From Isoetes taiwanensis (taxonomy: Eukaryota > Streptophyta > Lycopodiopsida > Isoetales > Isoetaceae), in the NCBI GenBank assembly GCA_021234155.1, contig JAJEKV010000308.1, positions 186,001-250,000 of the forward strand: a DNA stretch of 64,000 nt. Direction: 5' to 3'. Shown here one piece after another: positions 962 through 54,229 of the stretch (positions are counted from its first letter, which is position 1; each line of letters opens with the position of its first letter). Both the position numbers and the translations under genes were made by a program. The notes under the pieces were generated by a model, which was given only the letters and a program-made list of their open reading frames with translations, searched no databases and was not told where the DNA came from.

Positions 962-966
962 AGGTT

Positions 967-3862: not shown

Positions 3863-4495
3863 AGGTTTCTCAACAACTCCTCTTGGAGATGCAAATTTGG
3901 TCGAAGAAGTTTAGGTGGTTATTTATTATTTATTTGCCGAGCCGAGGAGAAAAGTGTAGCCGACAAACACAGAACCCCCGCATTTTTCGGTGGGCTGACT
4001 CGTTTGGCTTAAGATTAAAGTGAAACAAGCCAAGCTTAAGATCTAAAACTGCAAAGAAGTTGGCACCTAGATGGGCTGGACCGTTCAAAATTCTTGGCGT
4101 GTGGGAGGCGGGCATATCGTTTGGAATTGCCACCCGGCAAAGATTCACAAGGTTTTCACGTGAGTCTTACGAAACAACATACCCCTGATCCGGAGGAGGT
4201 TTGGATTCCCCAACCCTCCTAGAAATGACGAAGAGCAAGCTGGAAATAGTGCGAAGCTCTTCTTGATCGAGCTTACAAGCAAACCAGAAGGACTCAAATG
4301 TTGCAATACTTGGTTAAATGGAAACACTTACCAGTTGAGGATGCTACGTGGGTAATGAAGATAGACCTTGACAAGCACTATCCGGACTTTATGCGGGAAT
4401 CTCAAGGCCGCACCATCAACGATGCTATCAACCCAGATCGGTCGGTGGCTTAGAAGCTTGATTGTCGGTAGCGCCTTAGAGGGCAAGATGCATAA
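3863..4495 (+). pseudogene. Integrase C-terminus and chromodomain, family A copy 1 (damaged)
   Basis: Continuation of integrase after the nested element. It is homologous to the intact 209-residue block at 21,450-22,076. Readable pieces include the LAPRWAGPF-type SH3-like segment and the chromodomain block with YLVKWKHLPVEDATWV (about 4,300-4,355). The N-terminal part is scrambled where the intact copy reads through GCTGCACGCAGCCGTCAG; here the same stretch reads TTTGCCGAGCCGAGGAG, so the damage coincides with CTG/CAG sites. In chromoviruses the chromodomain steers integration toward methylated-histone chromatin. Confidence 0.85.
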
Positions 4496-5032
4496 GTAGA
4501 TAATAACAATAACAGATGATGAGATCACCCTGTGTTCTCTAGGACGTGGGTACTGTCAATAGTGACTTGACCACAACTTGTTGCAGAGCATATAGTTGAT
4601 AACAGCCTAAGGAACTGCAAACCATAGACATGATAGCTTTCCCCATAGACAGTAAATTCTTTTAATTGTTATGAGGGGGTTGTCCCTTCAACCACAACTT
4701 CTTCATATGTACTAACATCTTTGGTAATGCGGGCCCGATAAACGATCGTGCCCTGCCCATGTTAGAGGGTTACTGATGACCCGACCTCTTCAGTTTTGCT
4801 TTGCCTTCATGTCTTGTTTATCGTTCCACGGATTTCGATCCTAAATTGTTTGACTATGATAATCATGTTGAATGCACCACGGTGCTTGAAATGTTTTGCA
4901 AACCTTAAAGTTGAATATATGTATTACTTTTCCGAAAAATAACGGATTATCTTCCGTCATAATGTATTTCTTTGTACATTTCCAACTAACCCCAATCTTT
5001 GAGGGGCGACATAAATTCTAAGGAGCGGAGAA
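4496..5032 (+). other. 3' non-coding region and polypurine tract, family A copy 1
   Basis: No credible ORF. It aligns closely with 22,077-22,604 of copy A2. The last bases before the LTR (AAGGAGCGGAGAA) are the polypurine tract that would prime plus-strand DNA synthesis. Confidence 0.75.
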
Positions 5033-6587
5033 TGTGACGTTCCAAGTATTTATACGGTGTACGTATAAATATTGAACACGTCACTCGGTATAGGTACGCC
5101 ACCTGGGGTATGATAACCTAGGGGGTTGGCCACAATGGATTTAATTAGCTATGTTAACCAGATTATAAAGGATAATTATCTAAGGACATGTGATTAAGTC
5201 AATCCATAGTAGGAAGGCGCCATTTGGCATGAACCAGGTGGCTAGCATGAGGATTGCTAAACTAGGCCACCAAAGGGAAGCGCCATCCTCATATCAGCCC
5301 AATATAGGAGCAGCTGAGCGCTCAAGAAGCAGTTGCTGTTCGTCCCCAGATCGCCAAGATACCCTCTACACCGTTTTGCTACCCGATGCAGTACCATGGA
5401 AGCACCCCTTGACAACGGGTCCAGCCGAAACTCTGGTTAGTGGTAGTTAACTTGCAAATTGTAGAATAATACTCTAGTATTCTTTCCTGGTTGGTTTTGG
5501 GTGAGATTAACCCTTCTTTGGTAATTAGGAATACTTTTCAATTATGAATGACGCTCTGTATGGAATGGTCGATGTCTCTATGAGTTAGTTTAGTAGTTTC
5601 CGTAAGCAGGGGGATTACTTGGGGGGTAGAGGCCTCTGAGCTTGAGTATAGAATGCTCCTAGTAGTCCTTTAACACCCTACTAGTTTTCGGCCTGTGCAC
5701 AAGAGCCCACCGGGTCATAGACGCTATGGCCTGGCTTAGCACCAGATAAGGGGACTTGGTGGTGAAGTAGGGGGTGGGGTATTGCCACGAGCATAAAGGC
5801 TCCCGAGACTCCTCATTGAGCTAGGCACGATAGCGGTCCACGTGGAGGGCGAGGTATGGGTCGACCTCCACAGGTGTAGTGGTGTGACCCGTATGGGGCA
5901 CCATGCACTTTGAGTAGAATTAGGGTGAGTAAAGTGAATGCACGGATGCGGGGGTGGCTGATGCGGACACGTATTCTCTAGCTCACCCACAACACCAGCT
6001 GTGATCACGGAGGGGCGCCTCCCGAGCCTGCCTCATCGGACCAGTGTCATGAACTTTGGAGTAGACTCAAGGGTGATCCACGAGTCTGCGTCTCGGAAGG
6101 CTATAAGCGAAGCCATAGCGTGAATCGACCCATCCGCAAAGTGCATTGGAGGGCGGATGGAGTGGACAACCCTAGCCGATGTTCTATGCCGATAGCGCCA
6201 TGCCAAGATTGGGTCTGCTGATCTCCGAGACCCGGTAGTCGGTAGCTCCCCACTAGAGTCCTGGTAGGGGTAGAACTTTGGGCTTTTGGGTGTCTTCTTA
6301 GTTAGATGCATATTACGTATTTGTTAGTAGTTGGATGGATCGCCACCCTTCGTGGTGGCCACTTATTATGATTTATGTTGTGTGCTAACCCTTGTATTCA
6401 TGCTCCGCGGCGTAGAAGCCCAAAGCGTGGGCCGAATGACCCCTCCGTGTCCTTCACCTGAGCGTCTTTATGTAGACGGCCCAGGTTAGATGGAGGGCCC
6501 TGCTCATGGCTGTGATGAATGGTCGCCATGGGAGGAAAGTCCCCGTATGTATACGGTAGGGGTAAATTATATATTGCAGGGGCGTCA
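5033..6587 (+). repeat. 3' LTR of family A copy 1
   Basis: About 1,555 bp, beginning TGTGACGTTCCAAG and ending near GGGCGTCA. It aligns along its length with 8,352-9,932 and 22,605-24,147. Many short differences lie at sites where one copy reads CAG or CTG and another reads CGG, CCGG or CTTTG: CACCAGCTGTG here, CACCACTGTG in the A2 5' LTR, CACCCTTTGTG in the A2 3' LTR. Confidence 0.9.
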
Positions 6588-8351
6588 CATCCACAAGTTG
6601 GTGCGGCTTCACGGCACCAATCAGACCACCAAATTCGCCTCACGGCTTACCAACTTTGGATTGCCAATGGCAAACAAGGCCCGCGTCCCGTTCTTCAGAA
6701 GCCACCTCGCGCGCCTCAGCAATCTACCTTTCAGACCCTTAAGCTGACTTATCCAACCTTTGGCAACACGAAGGCAAACCATTAGACCAAAGTGCTCGGG
6801 CCCACATGGAAGAATTTGAGGCTACGGCTGTCCTAAATGGTCATGCACAACCTCAACTTGAAATTCCATATCTTTTCCACCACCTTTGCGTGGCTCGGGG
6901 ATAGGTTCAATCTGTATCGTTTTATCATAATCGTATTTTTCGTTTGATCTGGCACAAATTTGGCGTTTAATCGTCAAAAATATGGCTAAAACAATTCCGT
7001 GAAAAACTTTCGGCGTAAGCAAAACAACTGTTTAAACTACGCGAAGATGCGGTTCAGCGTAAGCGGCTGTTATTTTTACTACAGCGAACCCGATAGTTTG
7101 GCGTAAAAGCGAAATGAGCCCATTTAAACTACGTGAAAAACTTATCTTGGCGTAAAGCGAAAACGATCGCTTTCAGCATCAGCGGCAGCGCTCAGTATAT
7201 GCCGAAAACTTATTAGCCCGAAACCGCCCGGCTTACAGCGAACGCCCGCCCAGCGTCGCCCAACGCAAAAGAATGCTACCTTGAACAAAAAGTTTGTCGC
7301 GAGCTTATCTGCCAAACACGAAAAGAGTTCGCGTGAAGCGAACATTAAGGCAAACTGCAGCGTGGGGATTCGGCGTGGCGAAACTTGAACTTAAACTGGC
7401 GAGAAAGAAAGTTCGTAAAAGCGAACAAAGGTTTAAACACGGCGAAACTTTTTCCGGGCGTGAGTATTAAATACAAAAATACGTATTTTTCCCAAAAATA
7501 CGTTATTTTTGCACTTTATCGTCTGAAAAAATAGTTTCATACGTCTGAGAACCTATCCTGCGTGGCTCTCCTCACCAATGGCTTATGTCCAACAAAAGCC
7601 ACTTTGGAAACAAGATTGGTCGGAAATGGCGCTTTTCTTTCTCACTATGGAACCGCGGATGATGATTAACTTCATCTCAAGCAACTCAATGACCTTCAAC
7701 AAGAGCCCCGGAGTCCGCCGAGGATTTTGCAGATCGACTTCATATCTTTTTCGGCCAAACTCAAAGAGTACGACCGCAGGCGGATCTTGGTCCGGTTTCT
7801 CCAAGGACTTCCTCCAGCTATCCGACTCATGGTGAATACAGCTGGCAAGACTTTGGGCGGGGCTATCGACCTGTCAATCACTCACTCAGTCAATGTTTCC
7901 TCAGTGGCGTGGCTCTTGGGGAGCTCCCTTTCATACCACCAGTCATGGTTCCCAGTGGCCGTCCAACCTCAACACGCCAATCTGGCGGTATGATCAAATC
8001 TACAGTGCCATATCTGCAAACATCAAAGGCCACTTGGCAAATGAGTGCAATTCCACCAATGGCCCGCCTCATTGTAAGCGATGCAACATGTGCAATCATG
8101 CCGCGGAAGAGTGCACTCGCACTCATCCTACACCTTTCGCAACAATTTTGGTTTATCAAGTGCAAACAACACCTCGGCAACAATCGCAATATCGGCCGCA
8201 ACCCACTGCGGGCTCAACCCAATCAACTCTATCGACCAGCGGGGCAACAAGGGGACCCAACACCGCCCCCTTGCGGTCCTTCTAAAGCTCGATGTTATCA
8301 TCTTTATCACGAATGGGGTCATACCACCACGGCATGTCCTCAACTTCCCTT
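6588..8351 (+). pseudogene. Family B gag fragment, cut by element A2
   Basis: Gag (capsid/nucleocapsid) of a second Ty3/gypsy family, in several frames. The first 200 bp (readable as YQLWIANGKQG) also occur after the 3' LTR of A2. A middle stretch (about 6,990-7,450) has repeated lysine/arginine-rich KLRE-like coding motifs. The capsid part is clear at 7,725-7,865 (SFSAKLKEYDRRR, RFLQGLPPAIRLM). Zinc knuckles follow: one with a one-base disruption (CHIC then GHLANEC, about 8,006-8,050), one intact CKRCNMCNHAAEEC (about 8,073-8,114), and a third degraded GHTTTAC. The fragment stops at 8,351, where the 5' LTR of A2 begins. No LTR of family B is visible upstream. Confidence 0.75.
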
Positions 8352-9932
8352 TGTGGCGTTCCAAGTATTTATACGATTGTCGCATTATAAATATTGAACA
8401 AATCACTTTCGGTATAAATACGCCACACGGGGTATGATAACCTAGGGGTTGGCCACAATGGATTTAATTAGCTATGTTAACCCAGATTATAAAGGATAAT
8501 TATCTAAGGACATGTGATTAAGTCAATCCATAGTAGGAAGGCGCCATTTGGCATGAACGGTGGCTAGCATGAGGATTGCTAAACTAGGCCACCAAAGGGG
8601 GCGCCATCCTCATATCAGCCCAATATCGACCCGACAAAGCGCCGGGGGCGGTGGCGCTCAAGAAGCGATTCTTTGATTTAGATCCCGGATCGCCAAGATA
8701 CCCTCTACTGTATTTTGCTACCCGATGCAGTTACCATGGAAGCACCCTTGACAGCAGGTCCGGCCCGAAACTCGGTTAGTGGTAGTTAACGCAAATTGTA
8801 GAATAATACTCTAGTATTCTTTCTGGTTGGTTTTGGGTGAGATTAACCCTTCTTTGGTAATTAGGAATACTTTTCAATTATGAATGGCCTTTCTGTATGG
8901 AATGGTCGATGTCTCTATGAGTTAGTTTAGTAGTTTCTCGTAAGAGGGGGATTAACAGGGGGTAGAGGCCTCTCGAGCTTGAGTATAGAATGCTCCTAGT
9001 AGTCCTTTAACACCCTACTAGTTTTTGATTTTGTGCACAAGAGCCCACGGGTCATAGACGCTATGGCCCGGCTTAGCACCGGATAAGGGGCCGAGTGGTG
9101 AAGTGGGGGTGGGGTCTTGCACGAGCATAAAAGGCTCCCGAGACTCCTCACAGTGGGCTAGGCCTGATAGCCGGTCACGTGGAGGGCCGGGTATGGGTCG
9201 ACACTCCACGGGTGTAGTGGTGTGACCCGGTATGAGGGCACCATGCACTTTGAGTAAAATTAGGGTGAGTAAGCCCTGCACGGATGCGGGGGTCGCTGAT
9301 GCGGCCGCGTATTCTCTAGCTCACCCACAACACCACTGTGATGATCACGGAAGGGGCGCCTCCCGACCTGCCTCATCGGACCAGTGTCATGAACACAGGT
9401 AGACTCCAAGGGTGATCCACGGAGTGCGTCTCAGGAAGGCTATAAGCGAGAAGCCATAAGCGTGAATCGACCCATGCGCAAAGTGTGTGCGGGGAGGCGG
9501 ATGGAGTGGACAACCCTAGCCCGATGTTCTATGCCAGCCAGCGCCATGCCAAGATTGATTGCTGATCTCACGAGACCCGGCCCGTCGGTGGCTCCCCACT
9601 AGAGTCACGGTAGGGGTAGAACACAGGCTTTTGGGTGTCTTCTTAGTTAGATGCATATTACGTATTTGTTAGTAGTTAGATGGATCGCCACCCTGCATTG
9701 GTGGCCACTTATATATGATTTATCTTTGTGTGCCCCAACCCTTGTATTCATGCTTCAGCGGCGTATGCCCATCGGCGTGGGCGAATGACCCCTCGCGTGT
9801 CCTTCACGGCGTCTCTCGTAGGCGGCCGGGTTAGATGGAGGCCTGCGCCAAAGCGCTGGCGATGGTAAGCCATGGGAGGAAAGTCCCCCGTATGTATACG
9901 GTCGAAGTCGTATATATTACTGGAGGGCGTCC
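8352..9932 (+). repeat. 5' LTR of family A copy 2
   Basis: About 1,581 bp starting TGTGGCGTTCCAAG; it ends shortly before the primer-binding site (last few bases uncertain). It carries TATAAATA at 8,386-8,393, which also occurs near the start of the other LTR copies, so this may be a core promoter. Long LTRs of this kind would hold the promoter and polyadenylation signals of the element. Confidence 0.88.
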
Positions 9933-9936
9933 GCGG

Positions 9937-9948
9937 TGGTATCCGAGC
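9937..9948 (+). other. Primer-binding site (initiator Met tRNA)
   Basis: TGGTATCCGAGC just inside the 5' LTR. The usual plant site is TGGTATCAGAGC; the only change is CAG read as CCGAG minus one base, the same kind of difference seen elsewhere at CAG sites. It identifies the 5' end of element A2 and its plus-strand orientation. Confidence 0.85.
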
Positions 9949-10704
9949 GCGTGATTTCGGTTGCTTTCGAAATCATAGCGGGCTTAAACACTAACTTCGT
10001 ATACGGTAGTTAGGAGGAGGCTAAGTTAATGTGTTGTTAGTCCTCTTTGATGTTTGGTTCGGTGTTAGGTTAAATTAGGAAATTGTAGCTTCAAGAAGGA
10101 TAGAGGCGGAGGAGGGCCAAAATTGGAAGAATTGTAAATGTCGGTGAGTAGCTCAAATGGCCGGAGAAGGTCGTCCATTGGATCGGGCATACTCAAATTG
10201 CCCTAGGGCCCGGTCGTCTCCAGGCGAAAAATGGTCAAGGGCAGGCCGAAAACCCACTCGGGCGCCCGCTTGCTTTTGTCGTCTTGGGCACGGGGGTAGA
10301 AGAGCCGAAAATGCAATTCGGCCCGGCCAGGTCGGTCGAGGAGTCAGCGGGCCCAAAGTCAATCTTTCGAGGCGCCCGGAGCAACGCGTATAATGCGGCC
10401 GGGCCCGGCCCAGTATGCCCAGCGTATTTCCGCCATATAATCATTTTATAATAATAAAAATTTAAAAGTTAATAGGAAAATTTTAAAACTTTTTTAAAAA
10501 AAGTTATCTGGCCGTTCAAATTTCTTCTTGTTATTTGTTTTGCCTTGTCTTCAGCACCTTCGACCGCCAGAGCCGCTGCCCGCCATCGCAACCCGACGTG
10601 ACGTTGCTTCATCGCCCTTGTGTTTTGGGGAACCCTAGCGCCTCCCTTGCCGTTTTCCCACCACCGCCTCACCGCTTGACTTCATCGACCTTAGTGCTAC
10701 CACT
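9949..10704 (+). promoter_or_regulatory. Leader between primer site and first extra ORF
   Basis: No convincing ORF. The segment 10,430-10,510 is AT-rich. From 10,540 to 10,704 the sequence is C-rich and resembles a plant 5' untranslated region, including GGAACCCTAGCG at about 10,629, a telo-box-like motif (AACCCTA) common in promoters of plant ribosomal-protein and histone genes. This suggests, but does not prove, that the following ORF came with its own promoter. Confidence 0.4.
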
Positions 10705-11064
10705 ATGGCCAATACCAAGAGCACCATCGACCCAAAGACCCTAAGCATAGTGCAGATCTATGCCTTGATTGCCCGGCACATGGCTATGGACCCGGCCTTC
10801 ATCGACATCCTTCTGGATGAGTTGGTGAACCGTTTTGAGAATAACGATAGGATTCCCTATCCTATCTATCACTTCTCGGAGCCATTCCTGATCCGGCTGA
10901 ACCTTCGTCGGCTTTCTTACACCCTTGTCGAGCAACCTGACATGGTTATGATGCTGATTAAGTTCTATCCTCCCGAGCAAGAGGGCCATACCGAGGAGGA
11001 GGATATCAGGGCAGAAGCTGATCGCATGGGGCCTTCGCCCGGGAAGATGACCATCGGGAGGTAA
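10705..11064 (+). CDS. Unrecognised ORF in the extra region of element A2 (119 aa)
   Basis: Begins at an ATG in a reasonable context (CACTATGGCC) and runs 119 codons. The product starts MANTKSTIDPKTLSIVQIYA, is mixed alpha-helical in character, and turns acidic (HTEEEDIRAEADRMG) near its end. I recognise no family. It lies upstream of a Pro-rich and then H3-like segment in the same orientation, with a frame interruption just after 11,064, so it may be the N-terminal part of one longer protein ending in the H3 fold. It is not a known gag or pol domain. The stop may be an artefact, because the flanking sequence shows the CAG/CTG-site damage discussed in the findings. Confidence 0.45.
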   Translation: MANTKSTIDPKTLSIVQIYALIARHMAMDPAFIDILLDELVNRFENNDRIPYPIYHFSEPFLIRLNLRRLSYTLVEQPDMVMMLIKFYPPEQEGHTEEEDIRAEADRMGPSPGKMTIGR

Positions 11065-11643
11065 ATGGCCGGATACGGGCTACTCGTGGCGGGAGTGCGG
11101 TATTTAGGGGCGGCTTTGGCGTCATAGATGGCAGGAAAATGGAGGTTCCGTCTGCGAATGGGATGAAGGCTCGAGCTTCATGTAGGGAAGCCCCAATCCA
11201 CGATATCGGTCTGGATTACGACAGCGATCCAGTTGATATGAACCAGCGACAACCCGTTACCATCTTGAAACTTCTTCGCCGGCGCCCGCCCAACAATTCT
11301 TTCGGATTCAAGAAGATCGAGGAGAGCCGGGGAGTACGGGAAGAACGAGAGGCTCGCAAAGGGAGAAGAAGGCTCCAGCAAGACCAGCTGACAACCCGGG
11401 GGGCGGGGGATGCAGGCGGGTCAGGGCCCAACCCCCCGCAGACATGTGACCGTTAAGCCACGGAGGAAGGGTTTGCTTGGGAAGGCTGGCGATCAATACA
11501 AAGGATAAGATTCTGAGCATCGGTGCTTTTTGGTAAGAAATCGAGCTCCAATGTCCAGAATGGCCGGCGGGTGGATGTCCGCCAAATTGTTGGGGCCAAG
11601 ACCGTTCCTGCACCAAGAGGGCCGCCTCCAACCCCTCCTCCCG
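11065..11643 (+). other. Broken coding-like stretch before the H3 fold
   Basis: Short ORFs in all three plus frames. One (11,139-11,456) is strongly basic (REEREARKGRRRLQQ); another reads a proline-rich stretch ending PPPTPPP at about 11,610-11,640 directly before the H3-like block. It could be an N-terminal tail of the H3-like protein, but frame continuity cannot be shown from this sequence. Confidence 0.35.
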
Positions 11644-11924
11644 AGGAAGCCCCACCGATATAAACCGGTACACGTGGCCTTCACGGAGATCCGTAAGTTT
11701 GAAGTCAACTCAACCCGATCACGGAAAAGCTCCCCTTCGGAGGTTGGTCCGGGAGATTGCCGAGGAGTTCAAGACCGACCTCCGTTTCGGACTTTTGCTA
11801 TTTTGGCACTCCAAGAGGCTGCTTTGAAGCCTATTTGGTGGCACTTTTAGTGCGCCAATCTTTCGCGGCGATCCACGCCAAGGGGGTAACCATAATGCCT
11901 AAGGATTTAGCCCTCGCCTGGTAG
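11644..11924 (+). pseudogene. Histone H3-like fold inside retrotransposon A2
   Basis: Three overlapping frames together read most of a histone H3 fold. In order: RKPHRYKP (11,644-11,667, H3 KKPHRYRP), EIRK (near 11,691), [16 protein letters not shown] (11,741-11,788), ALQEAA (11,806-11,823), AYLVALL (11,829-11,849) and [12 protein letters not shown] (11,871-11,906), ending in a stop at 11,922. H3 packages DNA with H4 in nucleosomes. The canonical loop EDTNLC is replaced by VRQSFA and the usual Arg of HAKRV is Gly, so this is a divergent H3. The preceding tail is Pro-rich and not the ARTKQTARKS tail. FKTDLRF is canonical and unlike typical CENH3. Frame breaks fall exactly where Gln (CAG) or a CTG codon is expected (11,738; 11,789; 11,824), so the gene may be intact in reality. 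Confidence 0.8.
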
Positions 11925-12130
11925 GATTCGGGAGCATCCTTAGCCCTATTATGCTTGGATCCGCATTGTAAATATTTTCTTGTATTTAATAGAAAAACTT
12001 TTTTATCTTGTATTTTTTTATCTATTTAGTAATTTAATATAAAAGAATGCGGCGTCAGCCTCAAATAAAGAACTTTTAAACTTCCTTTCACATTCGTTTG
12101 TTCTTTGTCCTCCCTCCCCTTTTTTAGCGC
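11925..12130 (+). other. AT-rich 3'-UTR-like gap after the H3 fold
   Basis: Contains TATTTAATAGAAAAAC and TAATATAAAAG stretches resembling plant polyadenylation regions, followed by a pyrimidine-rich run (CCTCCCTCCCCTTTTTT) before the next ATG at 12,131. It reads like a gene end followed by a gene start. Confidence 0.4.
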
Positions 12131-12637
12131 CATGGCGGCCGCCCGGCATATCGCTGGTACCATGGCCGGGAGAGCAATGGGATCCCAAGTCCCCTTCGAT
12201 CTCTGCGGCCTTTGCTATGCCGGTGCCTAGATCTCCTTGCCAACATGCGAGAGGCACCCGGTCGCCCGGATTTTTGGATTTTCTACGGGGAGGAGATGCT
12301 CCCTCGTGTATCCCTCTTGGGGATCCTCCCCAGCGTATATGGAGGCGGGGAGGTAGTCGAGAGATGCCTCGGGGAGATACTCATGCATATGATGTCACGA
12401 AGGAAAGCTCGGTGGGGCAAGCACCTGCCCGTGATGCGACATGTCGGGTGGCAATACCTTGAAGTTGCCTTGCATACTAGCCATCCTCATGGACCAATCG
12501 TCGAGGATGAAACCTTGCACGTAGAGAAAGGCAAATTGCACGAGTCTTCGAGGAGGGGAAGGCGAACACATGAGGCATGGCGACCGCCCGTTAGCAGATT
12601 GGCGGAAGAGCTGCCACCACCGGTGAGCAAGCTATAG
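12131..12637 (+). CDS. Unrecognised ORF, extra region of A2 (frame-disrupted)
   Basis: An ATG at 12,131 (GCGCCATGGCGGCC) opens MAAARHIAGTMAGRAMGSQ; after a disruption near 12,225 the coding character continues in another frame with DFWIFYGEEMLPRVSLLGIL and WQYLEVALHTSHPHGP to a stop at 12,635. No family recognised. Codon use is GC-rich at third positions, unlike the AT-rich genes at 50-64 kb. It probably joins the following ORF (gap of a few codons) as one protein. Confidence 0.4.
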   Translation, partial: HGGRPAYRWYHGRESNGIPSPLRSLRPLLCRCLDLLANMREAPGRPDFWIFYGEEMLPRVSLLGILPSVYGGGEVVERCLGEILMHMMSRRKARWGKHLPVMRHVGWQYLEVALHTSHPHGPIVEDETLHVEKGKLHESSRRGRRTHEAWRPPVSRLAEELPPPVSKL

Positions 12638-12639
12638 GC

Positions 12640-13485
12640 TTGTCGGGGCTGGATGCCCTTCGATTATTTACCACCAAGGGCAAGAATATCTTCTCTTGGA
12701 TGATATTATCTGGACTTATCACATGGTGGCCGGATTTAGACGCAAGCGTAAAGACCATGTGCTTTACGAGCTTGCGGAGTATTGCATGGATGACTTCATC
12801 GACTTCAATTCTATTGAGCTTCCTCCGGAGGCGGCGGTTGCTCGGTTCCGTCAAAGAGACCATAGAGCGGATGACACTCTACTACGTCTTGGGACCCCGT
12901 GATCACGAGGAGCCAACCTCTCAGCCCTCACCAGATGCCTTCTCGGCTATGGGACCTCACGTCCCAAACATTAATATGGTTGAGGTTCCCTCGGGTTCAG
13001 ATGACGAGGGAGAGGATTTATATCATAACCCTGCTCATGTGAAGGAGGAGCAGCAAGAACTTAAGGAAGAGGAGGTTTCCATGGATTTGGATAAGGAGAT
13101 GGCCACATCAGAGACCCCGCAAGGGAAGGTATCGGGCAACCACCTTACCCGTTTCTTTTTGTCAGCCTTTCGACAAGGGCAAGTCCTTTTTATAGCCCGG
13201 GATTTAGGGCCGGAGGCTGAAGCTTCGTGGTGGGCCCTCCGTGCTCTCTCTACACTAGCCGGCCACAAGAAGCTCCCCTATCATACGTTTACCTATGTAC
13301 TCGTGCGACGGGATCTTGCCCTGACGGCCTTGGGTCAGGATATTGCACCCTGGATGAGCATGAAGCTTCTCACGGCAGCCCCATTGGCCATTGCCTATCC
13401 ACGGAGGTTGCATCTCTTGCGGCGCCCACCCGGTAGACCAGGGGTGACTTTCTTTGCGACACCGACCGCCTCCACCACCTCCTAG
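12640..13485 (+). CDS. Unrecognised acidic ORF, extra region of A2 (281 aa)
   Basis: The longest continuous ORF of the extra region. The first third appears to be out of frame: the +1 frame at 12,696-12,902 reads more convincingly (DDIIWTYHMVAGFRRKRKDH, EYCMDDFIDFNSIELPPEAA). The central part is strongly acidic (SGSDDEGEDLYHNP, then a Glu-rich run at about 13,040-13,105), and the last third is hydrophobic and Leu/Ala-rich (WWALRALSTLAGHKKLPYHT). I recognise no domain. Chromatin-associated proteins often have such acidic stretches, but that is weak evidence. It lies between the H3-like segment and gag, in the same orientation. Confidence 0.45.
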   Translation: MSGLDALRLFTTKGKNIFSWMILSGLITWWPDLDASVKTMCFTSLRSIAWMTSSTSILLSFLRRRRLLGSVKETIERMTLYYVLGPRDHEEPTSQPSPDAFSAMGPHVPNINMVEVPSGSDDEGEDLYHNPAHVKEEQQELKEEEVSMDLDKEMATSETPQGKVSGNHLTRFFLSAFRQGQVLFIARDLGPEAEASWWALRALSTLAGHKKLPYHTFTYVLVRRDLALTALGQDIAPWMSMKLLTAAPLAIAYPRRLHLLRRPPGRPGVTFFATPTASTTS

Positions 13486-13734
13486 CCCTACGGATGAAGA
13501 GGGAGGACCTAGCTCTTAAATTAATTGTACTACGCATTTCTGTATTGCGTATGTTTGTGGAGTTTTGGGTTGGGTTAGCCACTTTATAATATGATATATC
13601 TTTCTTTCCATCGATTGTAATTACTATCTTATGAATACAATTGGAAAATTATTCCTTCTATCATGTGTTTTCTTTGGTTATTGAGTTGGTCTATAACAAA
13701 ATTATCCACCCCCTATATTCATTTCAATTGTCTT

Positions 13735-13956
13735 TGCGAAGAAACCCTCTGGGAATATGAGGAGAGGATTCTGGACATGATAAGGAGGGATGACCCGGGC
13801 GCCTTGAGGCGGGACTATGCGAGAGGTATGGCGAATATCGAATGGGATGAAGGCTATGAGATGGAACCCCGCCACCGGGGAGAACCCTATGATGCTGACA
13901 AAGGGTTGGAGATAGTTAACATCCTTAGGAATGAGCTTTTGAGGACACGAAGTTGA
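13735..13956 (+). CDS. Small unrecognised ORF, extra region of A2
   Basis: Open from about 13,663; the coding-like part starts near 13,735 (LCEETLWEYEERILDMIRR) and continues through charged sequence (YARGMANIEWDEGYEMEPRH, NILRNELLRTRS) to a stop at 13,956. Highly charged, no membrane segment, no recognised family. Confidence 0.35.
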   Translation, partial: CEETLWEYEERILDMIRRDDPGALRRDYARGMANIEWDEGYEMEPRHRGEPYDADKGLEIVNILRNELLRTRS

Positions 13957-14857
13957 CCACGTGCGTGCACAGGACTATTGGAGTATGAGCGGCCGCAGGC
14001 TTTCGAGGGCCGCCAATGACCACTGTGGCAACTCTTCTATGCTTGCGAAGGCTTTTCAATCTTCTTATTGTTAGCCCAACATGGGAATACCAACCCGGTG
14101 ATTGTCAAGCTGGAGCGCGCTACAAAGCTTCGTTAGAGAACATGCGGGAGAGTGTCAGCTACTCGATCCTTACCCCTTTTGCGAACCCCTAGGCTTGGTT
14201 CCACAAGTTATGTGTTTTGTTGTTGTTACGTTGTGTGCGGTTAGAACTTTAAAACTTCCAGCGTATAATACCTCATTAAATGCGACCCATGTACCAATCA
14301 ACTTGTTGTTGTACTCAACTTGAATGAAATGAAACATCGGTTTTGTTTGTACTTTTTCTTGTCCTTTGTCGGCAATTGTTATCTAAATAAAATTGTATGT
14401 TATTATTATGCGATGCTTATGCTTCCATGAATGCTCGATATAGGCGGTGCGAAATGCGCCGGCTTAGCGGAGACACCCTCAACGCCCGGATGGTGACTCT
14501 GAAGCGAGGCGATGTTAATGAAAAAGGCGGCTAGGCGAAGTGCGGAGCCCTACGTATTGCCGCCAACCCACGCCAACAAACCCGGGAAGATGGACGGAGT
14601 TACCTCTGCTACCAAGTCCACACACTGCTTGACCATCTCCCCACGGAGCTAGTCCGTACACACTAAGGAGGCCTCATGCTAAAGCGTCACCAAAGTTCCT
14701 CTAAAAGATAGTGCCACTTCCTCACGATCAACCACTTCCGTATCTTACGGTCCATCGATATCGCCGGTGACCATGCAGCGCCGAGACAAAATTACCAGTA
14801 AGGCGGTTGATACAGCTATAACTAGTATATGGAAGAATAGGAAATTGGCCCGGTTCG
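13957..14857 (+). other. Non-coding stretch before gag of A2
   Basis: Only one 73-codon ORF of no clear character. The segment 14,200-14,420 is T-rich with AATAAAATTG at about 14,388, like the 3' end of a gene. I see nothing identifiable from 14,420 to 14,857. Confidence 0.4.
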
Positions 14858-15640
14858 ATGGAAAATCCAGGCGGCTTAAATCCCGAATCCTGGTTGGATG
14901 AGATGAAGGAGTTTGGGAAGTCTTATGGAATGGCAGAGAAGGATACTGGGAAAGGTTGCCACCACCAACCTTACGGGGAGCTGCCCGTATTTGGTGGAAA
15001 GGGCTATGCGAGGGCCAAGCATTTGGACGGGGCGGATGCAACTTCAGAAAGTTTGCCAAGGCCTTCAAAGTGCGCATTATGTGCCCGATGCGCACAAATG
15101 CCAGCAGATCCGGACTTTCTACGGGTTGGGCGAGGAAGTATGTCCGTGAAGGCTTACGGATGAGTTTATTTGAGGTTGTATGTACTGGTATGAATGAGAA
15201 AAAGGCGTGGAAGGCTATATTGAGGATTGGCACCATCAATCAAGCGGATGGTTAAGGCCATAGACCCAAAATCGATTCTGAGGCGAGGCTAAAGCATTGA
15301 GTCTCGAGGAGGACCGCCAAAGAACCGGTATCCGTCCTGCGCCTTACTCGCAGACCCACGGCCCGTCCACACCTTACAAACCCGTTCTCCAAATGCGGGG
15401 CCCCTCGGTGAGAACTCTTATGGCGTCGGGGAAAAGAAGGTTACCTTTAGTGCGCCTGATAAGCAGAACAATGCCGGTAAGGAAGTTCGGAACCTCTTAC
15501 AGTCTATTCCTAAAGAGGCCCGTGAACAGCTCCGCCGCGATAAGGCATGCTACAGGTGTATGAGGCCAGGACACTTCATGCAAGATTGTCCTTATGTCAC
15601 CTTGAGGCCCTTGTGGCCATGGCGACCTCAATTGGGATGA
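14858..15640 (+). pseudogene. gag of element A2 (frameshifted)
   Basis: Structural polyprotein that would form the virus-like particle. The start of the capsid reads ENPGGLNPESWLDEMKEFG. The conserved retrotransposon-gag block reads GAARIWWKGLCEG (about 14,978-15,016), then KFAKAFKVR (about 15,053), and YVREGLRMSLFE (about 15,135). The nucleocapsid has one perfect CX2CX4HX4C zinc knuckle, CYRCMRPGHFMQDC, at 15,548-15,589. Blocks lie in different frames; several shifts sit next to predicted CAG/CTG sites, for example LTGAA read as LRGAA with ACAGGA changed to ACGGGGA. Confidence 0.8.
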
Positions 15641-16316
15641 CCTCGAAGCAACACAACCCGTCGAGGAGGAGGCTCCCGATTTCATTCACGGTGCGTCTCA
15701 TATCCTTGCAGCTATAGAAACCGGCAATGCTGAAAATCAGCCTGCTGTTATTTCTACCATAGGCCAGATAGACAAGAAGCCTTTTGTAATTCTTATGGAT
15801 ACAGGAAGTACACATAATTTTGCTTCTCCTAGGATGGCCCATGTCTTACGTCTAGAAACATTGAGGTCCCGTCAAGGACACGTCACTCTAGCCATTGATA
15901 AGGTCGGGGCATACCCATGGTCGTCGCATCAATCTCAACATGCAACTCCCAGGTGCACCGGTTGCTTTAGGTGCTGAATTGATGGATATTGGCAAATATG
16001 ACCTCATTGTTGGTATGGAATTCCTGGCATCCGCGAAAGCAAACATAGACTGCGAGAAGAGAGAAGTTACCTTCAATGCAGCTAATGGAGCTCGCGTAAC
16101 TCTTAAAGGTGAACCTCTCAACCCTATCCTGCAGTCTATGTCCATCAGGCAGTTACATAAAGCTATACACAAGGAAAAGCTCCTTTGCATCGTTATGCTT
16201 GCTTCCATCGAGTCAGATGCTAAGCAAAAAGCAGTGTCGGCAGCCCTCGGAGGGATTGCTAATCTTCTCGAATTTGGTGATCTTTTTCGGATGAGACCGG
16301 AAGCTTCCTCCTTTTA
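15641..16316 (+). pseudogene. Aspartic protease region of A2
   Basis: The retropepsin that would process Gag-Pol. The catalytic motif MDTGSTHNF is intact (Asp at 15,798-15,800) and preceded by the usual beta strand (GQIDKKPFVIL). The second conserved block reads YDLIVGMEFLASAKANID (about 15,999-16,052), equivalent to the ILGMDWL motif. One frameshift near 15,910 separates the two. The linker to RT (to 16,315) is open and basic. Confidence 0.82.
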
Positions 16317-17570
16317 GAGGGGTGGAATGTGAAATAGCTTTAGAACCAGGTACCAAGCCTACCAGCAAGGCTCCGTACCGTATGACTCCTCCAGAATTGG
16401 CAGAACTTAAGAAGCAACTTCAAGAGTTATTAAACCTAGGTTTCATCCGACCTAGTGTATCGCCTTTTGGTGCCCCTATTCTCTTTGTTAAGAAAAAGGA
16501 CGGCTCACTGAGGATGTGTATTGATTACCAAACAACTGAACAAGCATACCATCAAGAATGGCTATGCTTTGCCCTCGAGGCCGGATGACCTAATGGATGG
16601 AGTTACAAGGGGCTAAGTATTTCTCAAAGATTGATCTTCGCTCAGGATACCATCGGATAAGGATCAGGAGGAGGACATCCATAAATCCGCTTTTCGCACT
16701 AGGTATGGGCATTATGAATTTCTGATTATGCCTTTTGGATTAACTAATGCCCCGGCAAGCGTTTATCACGACTAATGAATGATGTTTTCCGACAATATTT
16801 GGATGATTTTGTTGTTATCTTCTTGACGACATTCTCGTCTCTGAAGAAGACCCTTGAAGAACATGAGAAACATCTTAAATTGGCCCTACAAAAGGCGAGG
16901 CGTCATCAACTCTATGCTAAGTTCTCTAAGTGCAAGTTAAGCCACTCCAAAGGAGAGAGGGAATTACTCTGAGACCCATAAAGATAGAGGGGAATGGCCT
17001 ATTCCGGGGAGTGTTTCGAAGTCAGGAGTTTCTTGGGATTAGCGGGCTACTATCGAAAATTTGTAAAGGATTTGTAGAAAGATTGCAGCTCCTCTTACAA
17101 ATCTCACAAGCGGGGAGAAGGTGAAGGATTGGATGGACCCTTTGGAAGGCGAAAGTTCATGAGAGTTTCCAGCGGCTTAAGGATGCCCTAACATCAGCAC
17201 CGGTTCTCACATTACGGATCACGAGCGGGGATAAGCTAGTGGCAACGGATGCGATTAAAATTGCCACCGGTGGGGTCCTAATGCGGGGAGGGAGGGTAAT
17301 ACCCTACGATTCAAAAGAAGATGAATGAGAGACGAGCAGCGATATCCTACCCATGATCAGGAATTGTTAGTCAGTTATGCGTGCTCATGGATATGGCGAC
17401 ACTACCTTCTTGGTAGAAGATTCCAATTGGATCACGGATCATCAAAGTCTGGGTTATTTATCCACCGGCCAAACCTCAATCTCCGTCGGAGAAGATGGAT
17501 GGAATTTCTCGAGGAGTATGATTTTGAGATTATGTATAAGCTTTGGCAAGCACAAGCGTGGTTGCGGATG
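16317..17570 (+). pseudogene. Reverse transcriptase and RNase H of A2 (frameshifted)
   Basis: The polymerase that copies the element RNA. The first 88 codons are open and typical: [49 protein letters not shown]. The catalytic motif YLDD is intact at 16,796-16,807 in FRQYLDDFVVIF. The following KHLKLALQKARRHQLYAKFS and FLGISGLL/YRKFVKDL segments are the thumb/connection. RNase H is recognisable from VLTLRI through ATDA and GGVL (17,205-17,280) and WITDHQSLGYL (about 17,429-17,461), with damaged catalytic positions. At least six frame changes occur. Confidence 0.85.
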
Positions 17571-18541
17571 CTATCACGCCACCCCTTGGTGACCCGAACC
17601 CATTGCAATGCCATTTCTCGCTTACCGGTGAGTTTGGCAAGCGGATAGAAACGGACCTTGGCCCGCGGATCCGGAGTTACGTGACATTTGGGAGAGTTTG
17701 GCTAAGGAAGCTCGCCGCGGATCTGAGGCGTGGCGCTTCCGTGTTTATAAGAAAGAGGGCAATTTATTATATCACAAGGATAAGTTGTGTGTACCGCGGG
17801 ACTTGAGTCACGGAAACTCATTCTTCATGACACACACAATAGCCCTATAGCTTTGGACCGCGAGGGTTTATGAAAACCTACTTTAAGATTCGGCTCGGTT
17901 ATTTACGGCCTTCTATGAAGAAGGACATTGCCAAATATATTAGGCGATGTCGGGTGTGCCAGCGAGACTAAAAGCGAAACGATTAAGAATCCTAGGTGAG
18001 CTACAACCTCTGGATGTGCCCAATGCCAAATGGGAAGTGATAACCATGGATTTTATTGTGGGCCTTCCAAGGACTCTCCGGGGATATGATGCTTTGATGG
18101 TTGTGGTCGACAAATTGTCGAAAATGGCTCATTTCTTGCCATGTTGTACCACGGATACAGCCTTTGATCTTTGCTACGCTATTTGCCAAGGAAATCTTGA
18201 TTACGGAATGCCACGAGTAATTGTGTCGGATAGGGATCCCAAATTTGTGGCGCGTGCGGAAAGATTTCTTTACCACCATTCAGACCAAGCTTGCTATGAG
18301 CCTGACATATCATCCTCAAGCGGATGGCTAGGGAGGCGGACCAATCGCATTATAGAGGATATGCTAAGAAGTTATGTATGGAGTAAGCAATCACAATGGG
18401 GTGACTATATTTACTGGTCGAGAGTTTGCTTATACTTGACATGAGGCGGGGAATCTTCGGGATGTCTCCCTTTATGATAAATTATGGTTATCAATGCCTT
18501 ACCCCGGATACATGGCATAACCAGTCTCTAAAGTAGAGGTT
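17571..18541 (+). pseudogene. Integrase zinc-binding and core domains of A2
   Basis: The N-terminal HHCC domain is present but scrambled (CRVCQ-like Cys pair near 17,950). The core reads WEVITMDFIVGLPRTLRGYD with the first catalytic Asp at 18,049-18,051, DKLSKMAHFLPCCTTDTAFD, and VSDRDPKFVARAER with the second Asp at 18,229-18,231. The motif that holds the catalytic Glu (TER) is obscured at about 18,322-18,340, although TNRIIEDMLRSYV after it is clean. A continuous frame of 165 codons covers most of the core. The gene is interrupted at 18,541 by nested element D2 and resumes at 21,432. Confidence 0.87.
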
Positions 18542-19130
18542 TGTAATCCACGGAATGGACCAAACCCCAAATTTGGCGAGAATGCAAAATATATGCATCG
18601 GGGCTGCGCCCACCTCTACCAGCAAATAGATTAACACAAATTGCAGAAGAAGAATGGAACGAGAGATCAAAGACACCTCAATTGCACAACCAAATCATAA
18701 TCTAGATAATCTGGAGGTTCATCGTCCTCTTCATTATTTATTTCTTCCATGGAACACTCTATACAAAATGGATAATCTCTTCAAAGAGCAAGAGTGAGAG
18801 AGAGAGAATGAGGAGACGTACCCTCCTCTTAAACTTACACAACAAATCTTGACCATTCATCTTCAAGCAATCTTCACCATTAGATCTTCAATAACTTACA
18901 TGTCTCCTAGGATTGCGCCACTTCACCCCCATGCTTTAATCATTGAAAAGGACTTTTATACACCTTCAAGTCCATAAGTTCAACTTCTATACATCATAAA
19001 TGCTTCATCCACAATATTTTCACATTTTTTACATTTTCTCCACATTACACCCATAGTGTTCTCCATTTATGCACACATTTCATCAATTTAAGCACATCAT
19101 GCAAAATAGTCAAGAAAAAAACGCACAACA
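18542..19130. repeat. LTR of family D copy 2 (left)
   Basis: 589 bp, TGTAATCCACGG to CGCACAACA, followed internally by TTATTCCCCCAAG (a purine tract on the minus strand). Confidence 0.9.
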
Positions 19131-20838
19131 TTATTCCCCCAAGATTATTCATCGTCCGATGAATTTTTCAAAAATCTTTTCTTTGATCTTCATGTCTTCA
19201 ACTTGGTCCTCTAATAGCATCACAACTTAACAAAATCCAATGTCCAAATGTCTTCAAGCCTTCAAAAACATCTATAGAAGTCTTCAAGGAAAAAAAATAC
19301 TAAAAACTTCTAACATCACTTCATCTTCATCAATTATAGGGTGGCAAGTCCCATCCAGGTCAGTGGCACCCTCGCTCTACTGCCCAGTATGGCGCTCTAT
19401 CCCTTTCATAACACTTATAAATTTTCATCACATTTTACATAGGTCATGAGATGATGCTGCCTTTCTAGGTCAGCACATCCATCATGCCATCCATAATCAC
19501 TTAAATAAAAAATAAAACTTGTACAACTTCATTTGATAGCTTGAATTCTTGAAAAAACTTGGAAATTAGATCCAATCGAATTGCAAAAGCATAAACACTA
19601 ACCACATAATCTTGATCTTCCTAATATGGCATTTGACTTGAATAGGCTTGTTTCTGGATAAATAGTCTTCTCTGAACATTGATGGTCTTCAAAAATATTA
19701 AAATTCCAAACAACAATGGTTGATTCTTCAAAGGAACTTCAATTCTTCGTAATATTTGGGAATATGTTTTGGGCACATATATATGCTTGCATAAATAATA
19801 TGGTCAAGTGCAATATTGGGACTTTAACTTGGTCTTTGGGACTTTGCTAAAATATGAACTTGGTCTGGATTTGAACAGCGAACCTCGCATTTGCTACTAC
19901 ATCTCTTACCATCCCATTCCAATTACTTTTGAAAAATTTTCACTATCTTTTTTGTATTAAACAGCTTTTACTTCTTTTTCTTTTTATTTTTCTTCTTCTT
20001 TTCTCTGCTACTCTGTGCGCGCGGCGATGGTGGTTAGGGTATCGGAAAGCAGATCAGTTTAGGGCTTCTTTCTTCTGCAGGTCCATCGAACAGAGATGGC
20101 AAGACAGGTAAGGTATGGCTGCGAAGCTTGTAACAAGGTTTGGCTATGGCATCACGGTGGCAGCAGTTCGACTCCTCTTCTCTGAATTTTTTTCATCATG
20201 GCAGATCAGCAATGGCTAGCAGAATCGAATGCCTCCTGATGGTCACGCTTGGGCAAATCGCCAATCCCTCCTCTTGGGTTTTTTGCAGGCTCGGGTGCAG
20301 CATTCGACAGGGCAGTTGGATATGGCCAATTTAGGGTATGGGGATCTAACAGAAGAGCAGATCGATATGGTAGAAACACAGAAGGTATGGAGGCGTCAGG
20401 CAGATGGCAAAGCGATGCAGCAAGAATAAAGCAAGGAATGATGGGATATGGTTTTCCCTTTTGCGGTATGGCACGAAGATCGGTGAAGGCGAGCAAGGCA
20501 AAATTTGTAGATTTTCAGAAAAAGGTAAACCAATATCAAAGAGGAATCTCTGGAGGCTAGCTTTAGTTGGCTTTCTTCAATCAAATCGACAAGAATATGT
20601 AAATTTGTTTTACTTTTATTGCTTCCATTCTTATTGTGCTGGCCAGATAAATAAAGCATTCAAATCATACCTCTTGATTGCTGCTTCAAAAGTCAATTGA
20701 GAGATGGCGGTTTTTCTTGCTTTGAGATAATATCGGACATATCACCATATATTCTTTATTCCAAATGAAGAATTGCTCCATATAATTGTATTCTTTCTTT
20801 GATAGAATCTTTGCTATTCTGCATAATGCCCCCACTTA

Positions 20839-21426: not shown

Positions 21427-21431
21427 AGGTT

Positions 21432-22076
21432 TCTCAACAACTCCTCTTGGAGATGCAAGCGCTGGTCGAAGAAGTTCGTGGTTATTTATTAGCTGCACGC
21501 AGCCGTCAGAAGAGTGTAGCCGACAAACACAGAACCCCACGCATTTTCCAGGTGGGCGACTCCGTTTGGCTTAAGATTAAAGTGAAACAAGCCAAGCTTA
21601 AGATCGGAAACTGCAAGAAGTTGGCACCTAGATGGGCTGGACCGTTCAAAATTACTGAGCGTGTGGGAGAGCAGGCATATCGTTTGGAATTGCCACCCCG
21701 CTTAAAGATTCACAAGGTTTTTCACGTGAGTCTTCTGAAACAACATACCCCTGATCCAGAGGAGGTTTTGGATTCCCCAACCCTCCTAGAAATGACAGAA
21801 GAGCAACTGGAAATAGTGCCCGAAGCTCTTCTTGATCGAGCTTACAAGCAAACCAGAAGGACTCAAATGTTGCAATACTTGGTTAAATGGAAACACTTAC
21901 CAGTTGAGGATGCTACGTGGGTAATGAAGATAGACCTTGACAAGCACTATCCGGACTTTATGCGGGAATCTCAAGGCCGCACCATCAACGATGCTATCAA
22001 CCCCGCAGTCGGCGGTAAGCTTAGAAGCTTGATTGTCAGGCGTAGCGCCTTAGAGGGCAAGATGCATCGTAGATAA
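21432..22076 (+). CDS. Integrase C-terminus with chromodomain, A2 (intact segment)
   Basis: Open from the D2 junction to the stop at 22,074. The frame reads VSQQLLLEMQALVEEVRGYL, then VADKHRTP and FQVGDSVWL (SH3-like DNA-binding part), LAPRWAGPFKITERVGEQAY, FHVSLLKQHTPDPEE (junction typical of chromoviruses), and a chromodomain with LDRAYKQTRRTQMLQYLVKW and LPVEDATWV. The chromodomain aromatic cage positions are only partly kept (Tyr and Trp present in YLVKW and TWV). This segment keeps its CAG/CTG triplets and its frame, unlike the same segment in A1. It ends with a basic tail (RSLIVRRSALEGKMHRR). Confidence 0.92.
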   Translation, partial: SQQLLLEMQALVEEVRGYLLAARSRQKSVADKHRTPRIFQVGDSVWLKIKVKQAKLKIGNCKKLAPRWAGPFKITERVGEQAYRLELPPRLKIHKVFHVSLLKQHTPDPEEVLDSPTLLEMTEEQLEIVPEALLDRAYKQTRRTQMLQYLVKWKHLPVEDATWVMKIDLDKHYPDFMRESQGRTINDAINPAVGGKLRSLIVRRSALEGKMHRR

Positions 22077-22604: not shown

Positions 22605-24147
22605 TGTGGCGTTCCAAGTATTTATCACGATTATGCGTATAAATATTGAACCGTCACTTTTCGGTATAGGTGCGCCACACGGGGTATGATAACCTAGGGG
22701 TTGGCCACAATGGATTTAATTAGCTATGTTAACCAGTTATAAAGGATAATTATCTAAGGACATGTGATTAAGTCAATCCATAGTAGGAGGAAAGCCATTT
22801 GGCATGAACCGGTGGCTAGCATGAGGATTGCTAAACTAGGCCACCAAAGGGAAGCGCCATCCTCATATCAGCCCAATATAGGAGCGGTGGCGCTCAAGAA
22901 GCGATTCTTTGTTAGTCCCCGGATCGCCAAGATACCCTCTACACAGCATTTGCTACTGATGATAAGTACCATGGAAGCACCCCTTGACAACGGGTCAGTA
23001 GAAACTTCACGGTTAGTGGTAGTTAACTTGCAAATTGTAGAATAATACTCTAGTATTCTTTCTGGTTGGTTTTGGGTGAGATTAACCCTTCTTTGGTAAT
23101 TAGGAATACTTTTCAATTATGAATGGCGCTCTGTATGGAATGGTCGATGTCTCTATGAGTTAGTTTAGTAGTTTCTAAATGCGAGGGATTAACAGGGGGT
23201 AGAGGCCTACGAGCTTGAGTATAGAATGCTCCTAGTAGTCCTTTAACACCCTACTAGTTTTTTACACTGTGCACAAGAGCCCTAGGGTCATAGGCGCTAT
23301 GGCACGGCTTAGCACCGGATAAGGGGCCTTGTGGTGAAGTAGGGGGTGGGGTATTGCACGAGCATAAAAGGCTCACGAGACTCCCTGGTGAGCTAGGCCT
23401 GATAGCCCGGTCACGTGGAGGGCCGGGTATGGGTCCGACACTCCACAGGTGTAGTGGTGTGACCCGGTATGGGGCACTATGCACTTTGAGTAGAATTAGG
23501 GTGAGTAAATTAGGATGCACGGATGCGGGGGTGCTGATGCGGCACGTATTCTCTAGCTCACCCACAACACCCTTTGTGATCACGGAAGGGGCGCCTCCCC
23601 GACCTGCCTCATCGGACCGGTGTCATGACACTGGGTAGACTCAAGGGTGATCCACGGAGAGTGCGTCTCCGGGAAGGCTATAAGCGAAACCATAAGCGTG
23701 AATCGACCCATGCAAAGTGTGCACGGGGGGCGGATGGAGTGGACAACCCTAGCCGATGTTCTATGCCGATAGCGCCATGCCAAGATTCGGTCTGCTGATC
23801 TCACGAGACCCGGTAGTCGGTAGCTCCCCACTAGAGTGCAGTAGGGGTAGAACACGGGCTTTTGGGTGTCTTCTTAGTTAGATGCATATTACGTGTTGTT
23901 AGTAGTTGGATGGATCGCCACCCTTCATGGTGGCCACTTATATATGATTTATGTTGTGTGCTAACCCTTGTATTCATGCTCGCGGCGTAAGCCCATCGGC
24001 GTGGGCGAATGACCCCTCGTGTCCTTCACGGCGTCTCTCGTAGGCGGCCCGGGTTAGATGGAGGCCACCCTTCAAATGGCGATGGTGCGCCATGGGAGGA
24101 AAGTCCCCGTATGTATACGGTAGAGTCGTATATATTACGGGGCGTCA
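22605..24147 (+). repeat. 3' LTR of family A copy 2
   Basis: About 1,543 bp, TGTGGCGTTCCAAG to GGGCGTCA, aligned with the 5' LTR at 8,352. Differences from the 5' LTR are concentrated at CAG/CTG sites, so divergence between the pair cannot be used directly to date the insertion. Confidence 0.9.
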
Positions 24148-54006: not shown

Positions 54007-54229
54007 ATGAGAGCTAGTTTTATATTGCACTACAATTCATTGTATACTCCTGGATATCAGGGCATTCAAGTAACTTTGAGCTGTACATAGAAGCATTAGA
54101 TTTATTTCATTCCTATAAAACTCAATCCTAAATCCTTGTATTTGATAAATCTTGTCCACATATTTTGTTTGCACCAGATCCCTGATAGCTATATTTTTAT
54201 CGGGCTAGTTTCTTTGTTCCCCTTTATTC

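Follow-up and report, generated by a model that had tools for sequence, protein, structure and literature searches.

A chromodomain retrotransposon family of Isoetes taiwanensis with a fused histone H3 domain maintained by purifying selection

The window analysed here is a stretch of 64,000 nucleotides from Isoetes taiwanensis (contig JAJEKV010000308.1, positions 186,001 to 250,000). A chromodomain Ty3/gypsy LTR element, A2, occupies about 8352-24141 of this window, and the following features were located in it.

8352..9936 (bounds approximate), plus strand: 5' LTR of A2, from self-alignment with 22605-24141 and 5033-6586
9937..9948, plus strand: primer binding site TGGTATCCGAGC; TGGTATCNGAGC matches nowhere else on the plus strand of the window
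10705..11943, plus strand: ORF1, its frame broken in A2; homologous ORFs are open in 14 loci
11647..11940, plus strand: histone H3 core (H3 residues 37-135) of ORF1, frame-shifted in A2 and intact in other copies
12128..13500 (bounds approximate), plus strand: ORF2 region, with an open 310-aa piece in copy L060
13621..14190 (bounds approximate), plus strand: ORF3 region, with open frames of 165-175 aa in copies L059-L061
14822..15640, plus strand: gag, capsid region and CCHC zinc knuckle (zf-CCHC and a weak Retrotrans_gag in the window)
15606..16314, plus strand: aspartic protease (RVP_2)
16295..17648, plus strand: reverse transcriptase and RNase H (RT_RNaseH at 17325-17645)
17944..18541, plus strand: integrase core (rve below the Pfam cut-off in the window, likewise in L060); a nested element follows after 18541
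21427..22073, plus strand: integrase C-terminus and chromodomain, the latter at about 21816-21962 (Pfam Chromo 3e-8 and SH3_Tf2-1 1.2e-22 on 21243-22073)
22605..24141, plus strand: 3' LTR of A2, from self-alignment

The element has LTRs with an adjacent primer site at 9937, which we take to be tRNA-Met-like. The order gag-PR-RT-RH-INT is seen directly in copy L060, which is co-linear with A2 from 12593 to 21821 at 93.7% identity and reads through from gag to integrase in a single open frame of 1307 aa, with the Pfam domains in that order; the zinc knuckle, protease, RNase H and integrase pieces of A2 itself match it. In L060 the part homologous to A2 gag gave Ty3_capsid and Retrotrans_gag, and the part homologous to the A2 reverse transcriptase gave RVT_1 at 1.6e-36, while the Pfam scan of the A2 reverse transcriptase piece gave no match. 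A chromodomain lies at the integrase C-terminus (E 3e-8, window 21243-22073). Two other copies are informative: L059 is A2-like through gag and has lost most of pol, and L061, representing a subfamily 68-73% identical at the DNA level, aligns in the same order. For the reverse transcriptase of the family, P0142 is the nearest (74%) of the 120 relatives listed, and none of the rest exceeds 65%. The H3-bearing family is a Ty3/gypsy chromovirus. Of its three ORF regions before gag, ORF1 alone contains a known domain, that of histone H3; the 310-aa piece of ORF2 and the ORF3 of L060 matched no Pfam family.

A nested element of 2.9 kb with 590-bp direct repeats (about 95% identical) is found at 18542-21426 and also at 967-3862. 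It sits in the integrase region of A2, of the upstream element A1 and of L060 (the C1074 copy), and not in that of L059, in which 18542 is joined to 21427 without the insert. It seems to be a nested LTR-type element that travelled with the A2/A1/L060 sublineage. A1 (1-6724) and A2 (17572-24285) have common sequence that includes about 140 bp past the 3' LTR; their bodies are 95.4% identical and their 3' LTRs only 89.5% (gaps left out). Because these 140 bp beyond the 3' LTR are common to both, A1 and A2 look like a duplication with an offset of 17.6 kb rather than two insertions.

The original prediction placed the landmarks of histone H3 on the plus strand at 11644-11924. They are indeed present there, split over three frames; the place was right and the end slightly short, as the homologous core begins with K37 at 11647 and extends to the stop-equivalent at 11941-11943. 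When two single-frame pieces were scanned, one matched Pfam Histone at E 0.005 and the other gave no match. A frameshift-aware alignment of H3 to 11400-12100 scored 270, against maxima of 48 with shuffled H3 (40 shuffles) and 44 with shuffled DNA (60 shuffles). When both strands of the entire window were scanned, the next best scores were 72, from an overlapping chunk at the same place, and 58 elsewhere. A chance match to H3 was rejected on the score of 270 against at most 48 in the shuffles. The three-frame translation and histone profile search that had been proposed as a check gave a hit to Pfam PF00125 at 2.8e-20 with a composite reading, pieced together by hand from the three frames, and the best PDB matches of this composite were H3 chains (E 1e-29).

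Three details of the segment had been taken as marks of a variant H3. The Pro-rich tail proved to be the linker of a larger fusion protein that starts at the ATG at 10705. Loop 2 read as VRQSFA occurs in none of 36 intact rows of the family, in which it is G/S-D-A/T-N-L-C, and the Gly in HAKRV is likewise found in 0 of 36, R116 being invariant there. Judged from these rows, both are peculiarities of the noisy window copy. When A2 or A1 was compared with L060 or L002 (over window 10641-18500 and 1-4252), indel/mismatch ratios of 0.83, 0.85, 0.91 and 1.05 were obtained, mostly due to 1-bp indels, versus 0, 0.02, 0.07 and 0.25 in four pairs of other copies. Much of the frame breakage in A2 may come from base-calling error; an unpolished contig is the simplest reading and real decay the alternative. 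Claims based on reading frames in this contig, rich in 1-bp indels, therefore need care.

That a chromodomain element also encodes an H3-like protein between its primer site and gag is supported by other copies of the family. A DNA search of the genome (1.66 Gb) with 11560-11940 gave 1232 first-look candidates, and all of the 40 that were scored matched, at 81-100% identity. In a genome search with the H3 protein, 150 of 9031 candidates were scored; they comprise 15 host H3 genes, 97-99% identical to H3, and 135 others at 72-87%, many of which lie in open frames of at least 420 aa. From these searches, 28 DNA-selected loci (L001-L028, including the window copy as L001 and A1 as L003) and 15 protein-selected element loci (L044-L058) were taken; L051 is the same as L011 and L056 the same as L017, so that there are 41 distinct loci in total. 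The 99-codon H3 core was uninterrupted in 21 of the 28 DNA-selected and in all 15 protein-selected loci, shares that are biased upward because both selections, on resemblance to H3 or the window sequence, favour good copies. As a sample independent of H3, the genome was searched with the first 225 residues of ORF1, giving 151 matches from 3573 candidates. Among the 150 listed, 122 have no stop inside the match; in 70 the match is free of stops and part of an open frame of 400 aa or more, which leaves room for H3. In at least 57 of the 150, one of the 145 H3 places used for comparison follows 726-953 bp downstream in the same orientation. The possibility that other copies of the family lack the segment is contradicted by these 57 or more copies picked by their N-terminus.

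The surroundings of the H3 segment are conserved as well. Of 20 seven-kb loci (L009-L028), 18 have A2 5' LTR sequence upstream, each of them together with the primer-site region, and the exact motif TGGTATCNGAGC is present in 14 of the 20, at 1.50-1.66 kb upstream of the H3 reference point. ORF2 sequence follows downstream in 19 of the 20; the distance is 1.0-1.1 kb in 18 of these, and L013 has it 1.9 kb away.

In intact copies, ORF1 encodes a protein of about 400-421 aa, located between primer site and gag, of which H3 forms the C-terminal 100 residues or so. It consists of an orphan N-terminal part, a charged region, a basic Pro-rich linker and the histone. The start motif M..TKS together with an open frame to the end of H3 was found in 14 of the 41 distinct loci (L002, L004, L009, L013, L016, L021, L026, L027, L028, L048, L050, L052, L055 and L057). 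Counted from the ATG, the lengths are 419 aa in L048, 411 aa in L050 and 421 aa in L055; the whole open frame of L028 is 401 aa. Pfam PF00125 matched ORF1 at E 5.6e-41 (L048) and 4.8e-39 (L055), which places the domain in the H3-type histone fold. A homolog search with full-length ORF1 was dominated by ordinary H3s. A search of 5.8 billion proteins with residues 1-310 of L048 ORF1 gave nothing at E <= 0.001; as it requires shared 5-residue words, distant relatives could escape it. A match of the ORF1 N-terminus to IMG/VR (L062, 38% over 60 residues) was judged to be chance, an unrelated long frame seeded by one of the search words. The single-sequence structure model of the window N-terminal piece was poor (pLDDT 48).

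To characterize the selection on ORF1, the 14 full copies were compared by the method of Nei and Gojobori. In the H3 core (91 pairs), dN was 0.0147 and dS 0.508, that is, a dN/dS of 0.029. The ratio was 0.074 over alignment columns 1-150 (88 pairs usable), 0.147 over columns 150-240 (89 pairs) and 0.274 in the linker, where one pair was at 1 or more. For the H3 core of other sets of copies, values of 0.040 (21 DNA-selected copies, 210 pairs) and 0.054 (13 distinct protein-selected copies, 78 pairs) were obtained. Mean dS in the core was 0.34-0.66, and no pair had dN equal to or above dS. Among the 11 close DNA-selected pairs (dS < 0.15) the core ratio was weaker, 0.105, as expected because unselected decay of single copies adds in; three close protein-selected pairs have no replacement in the core. 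Variable columns of the core number 16, 8 and 65 at the first, second and third codon positions (of 99 each). As yardsticks, the pair L060/L059 gave dN/dS of 0.089 for gag-PR, 0.124 for part of ORF2 and 0.088 for ORF3; by this measure ORF2 and ORF3, which are open in other copies, are constrained. The core value of 0.029 is below those of the other ORF1 parts and below that of gag-PR. The H3 core is free of indels in the 14 full-length copies, whereas the 900 nt that follow ORF1 have 1.19 gap openings for every 100 aligned bases, a contrast favoured by choosing copies with an intact frame. A ratio below 1, proposed beforehand as a check on the H3 segment, was obtained in all three sets (0.029-0.054). 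Neutral decay of a processed H3 pseudogene was rejected at 0.029-0.054 among intact copies. Comparison of the coding sequences shows that the H3 fold is kept by purifying selection in the element family. Such selection shows that the element needs the H3 fold and is silent on its use.

Concerning the origin of the domain, a tree of the core DNA separates 36 element rows (34 distinct copies) from the 15 host H3 genes, the branch between them having support of 100/98; this branch is compatible with a single origin and is no proof of one. The element rows have residues of their own: T86, I89 and L124 in 36 of 36, and A102, G105, A107 and P135 in 35 of 36 each. Synonymous differences between element and host were 0.81-0.98 (pS, 4 host genes against 6 copies), to which codon usage may add; among themselves, the host H3 genes have a mean pS of 0.605. 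Synonymous change is therefore fast here, and saturation alone gives no age. A recent copy of a host H3 gene was rejected on the saturated synonymous sites, and the suspicion that the segment might be a young, unselected copy fails both on these values and on the core dN/dS of 0.029-0.040. Because the synonymous sites are saturated relative to host H3, the capture looks old; it also looks selected, and not like a young passenger. A single, old capture of a cellular H3 agrees with the data. As to the donor, the two deep-branching rows L047 and L053 keep H87, whereas the host genes (L029-L043) have E77 in 15 of 15 and H87 only in the H3.3-like L029. Since the H87 of the two deep rows occurs in just this one host gene, it hints at an H3.3-type donor. 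In CENH3, loop 1 is longer than in H3. An origin from CENH3 was rejected, as the core is H3-like and its 99 residues align with host H3 without gaps in the 36 rows (rows of other length, L019 and L025, were left out of this comparison).

The residues that are conserved in the domain bear on its possible partners. K64, R69, R83, F84, C110, H113, K115, R116, V117, T118, K122 and L126, which we take to be contacts with DNA, with H4 or between H3 and H3', are invariant in the 36 rows. R63, R72 and R49, presumably contact residues of H3 too, are present in 35, 35 and 33 of the 36. Since these contacts with DNA, H4 and a second H3 are kept, it is likely that the H3 domain of ORF1 pairs with H4. Residues 87-90 are FAIL, or HAIL in two basal copies. 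The canonical H3 tail with K4, K9, K27 and K36 is replaced by a different, variable linker upstream of the core. Of 29 copies counted, 28 have R at position 36, and L055 has K; the basal L047 and L053, outside this count, also have K, so that loss of K36 is not general. The motif ARK[S/T] occurs in 19 of 25 copies with its context. This motif could be open to methylation, which speaks against a tail that simply escapes modification. As the linker evolves fast (0.274, with one pair at 1 or more), any function of the tail is putative.

Plant LTR retrotransposons are silenced largely through modified H3 tails. The reading we prefer, and regard as reasonably probable, is that of a chromodomain family with a selected ORF1-H3 whose protein pairs with host H4 and is placed on chromatin with a replaced tail. 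The ORF1 protein would pair with host H4 through its H3 fold and enter nucleosomes, or at least chromatin, by an H3.3-type route, the element-specific N-terminal part standing in for the canonical, modifiable tail. Its most likely use would be that nucleosomes made or marked on element cDNA or on integrated copies render host silencing through H3 tails less effective; the second most likely use would be to tether the pre-integration complex to chromatin, complementing the chromodomain of the integrase. In the available text of a report on viral histones, single viral H3s are expected to form nucleosomes with host histones, and the viral motif SAIL is judged likely to allow assembly, provided that the viral tail can act as a substitute (PMC9145170). 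Retroviral DNA, according to the accessible parts of two reports, is loaded with histones and silenced before integration (PMC8621569, PMC7104181), a step at which an H3 of its own would be useful to an element. A more specific form, in which ORF1-H3 replaces host H3 on element DNA so that the tail is illegible or unwritable for the silencing machinery while the chromodomain reads host marks for targeting, is put forward tentatively.

Several other explanations have to be weighed against placement of a selected H3 on chromatin. One element might have picked up a copy of a host H3 gene, which has since been an unused passenger, as the frameshifted window copy and the 7 of 28 DNA-selected loci without an open 99-codon core (window copy and A1 included) would suggest. 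This is highly improbable given the low core dN/dS at a mean dS of 0.34-0.66 with no pair at dN >= dS, the core without indels in the 14 full-length copies against the gap openings downstream of ORF1, and the retention of 72-87% identity to the H3 protein despite saturated synonymous sites. It is conceivable that the H3 domain has a structural role, compacting element RNA or cDNA in virus-like particles and never entering host chromatin, and the position of ORF1 before gag, in the 5' half of the element, would suit such a role. The kept residues, however, include the presumed H4-pairing and H3-H3' interfaces besides those for DNA contact, suggesting a histone partner, and we consider packaging rather improbable.

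Two further explanations were considered. As an integration tether only, nucleosomal ORF1-H3 would provide the chromodomain or integrase with a protein contact or with a methylated, ARKS-like mark. The chromodomain in the same element and the frequency of ARK[S/T] (19 of 25) speak for it, but the motif is not invariant and sits in the fastest-evolving part of ORF1; tethering as the sole function seems unlikely. By analogy with the tail-extended bracovirus H4, as described in the available text of PMC9145170, the protein might instead act as a poison or decoy histone and upset host silencing throughout the genome. A large N-terminal extension on a conserved fold agrees with this, as do the abundant copies (at least 135 element H3 matches scored and at least 150 matches to the ORF1 N-terminus); a purely toxic decoy, on the other hand, would presumably harm a host carrying so many copies, and we give this explanation little credence.

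Transposable elements with H3-like genes have been described in fungi, and these form the nearest precedent. In the available parts of the reports, these are hAT transposons, with H3L in Pyrenophora tritici-repentis (PMC3538342) and a further case in Pseudocercospora fijiensis (PMC6710886). They resemble the Isoetes family in having an amplified H3-like coding sequence from a cellular H3, and the H3L of P. tritici-repentis is stated there to have an altered tail and ESTs (PMC3538342). As far as these texts go, however, the fungal elements are DNA transposons with H3 as an ORF of its own, whereas in Isoetes a retrotransposon carries H3 fused to an orphan domain. The fungal copies described there number 26, nearly identical, in one case and 784, mostly truncated and RIP-inactivated, in the other; the Isoetes H3, in contrast, is under strong purifying selection across diverged copies. 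Membership in hAT-H3L was rejected, as the element is LTR-bounded with reverse transcriptase and integrase, and no hAT domain was among the Pfam hits of the ORFs scanned.

The A2 family shares with plant chromoviruses the LTRs, the primer binding site and the gag-PR-RT-RH-INT-chromodomain order, and differs from them by extra ORFs before gag, the first of which ends in histone H3. In a screen of 121 angiosperm genomes for extra domains of LTR elements, the available text names no histone (PMC9289625), and by word search 'histone' is absent from the main text of PMC7264820. Gypsy elements of orchids that carry an AlkB m6A demethylase, as presented in the former text, are similar in having a fixed host-type accessory domain, one proposed to counter host control; unlike the A2 family, they are similar to Ogre and carry an RNA demethylase in place of a histone (PMC9289625). 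Single viral H3s and the bracovirus H4 are like ORF1 in that the viral genome encodes a single core histone close to the host's, in some cases with a long N-terminal tail, and their alpha-2 motif SAIL or TAIL resembles the FAIL/HAIL of ORF1-H3; the carriers are viruses of other kinds, and the available text has no hit for 'retro' and one for 'transposon' (PMC9145170). Among the papers listed in a literature search covering titles and abstract openings, with subscription papers mostly outside its scope, there was no report of a histone in an LTR retrotransposon. H3 borne by a transposable element is already known from the fungal hAT elements, and what is new here is therefore stated as a chromovirus with a selected, fused histone H3.

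An H3 of its own with a replaced tail under strong selection would imply that element and host are in conflict over, among other things, the control of H3 itself. ORF1 would then offer a natural H3 fusion for testing how histone tails direct silencing, and a core histone is added to the few domains of host origin that have become fixed in LTR retrotransposons of plants. In genomes of this type, such elements can raise the number of histone genes counted.

Elsewhere in the window, full-length matches to the U5 (47322-47439, plus strand) and U4 (51338-51474, minus strand) spliceosomal RNAs lie 3.9 kb apart. A cluster of direct repeats of 0.35-1.4 kb, 93-98% identical, extends over 53064-59924 and contains a tandem pair at 53712-54002 with an offset of 148 bp.
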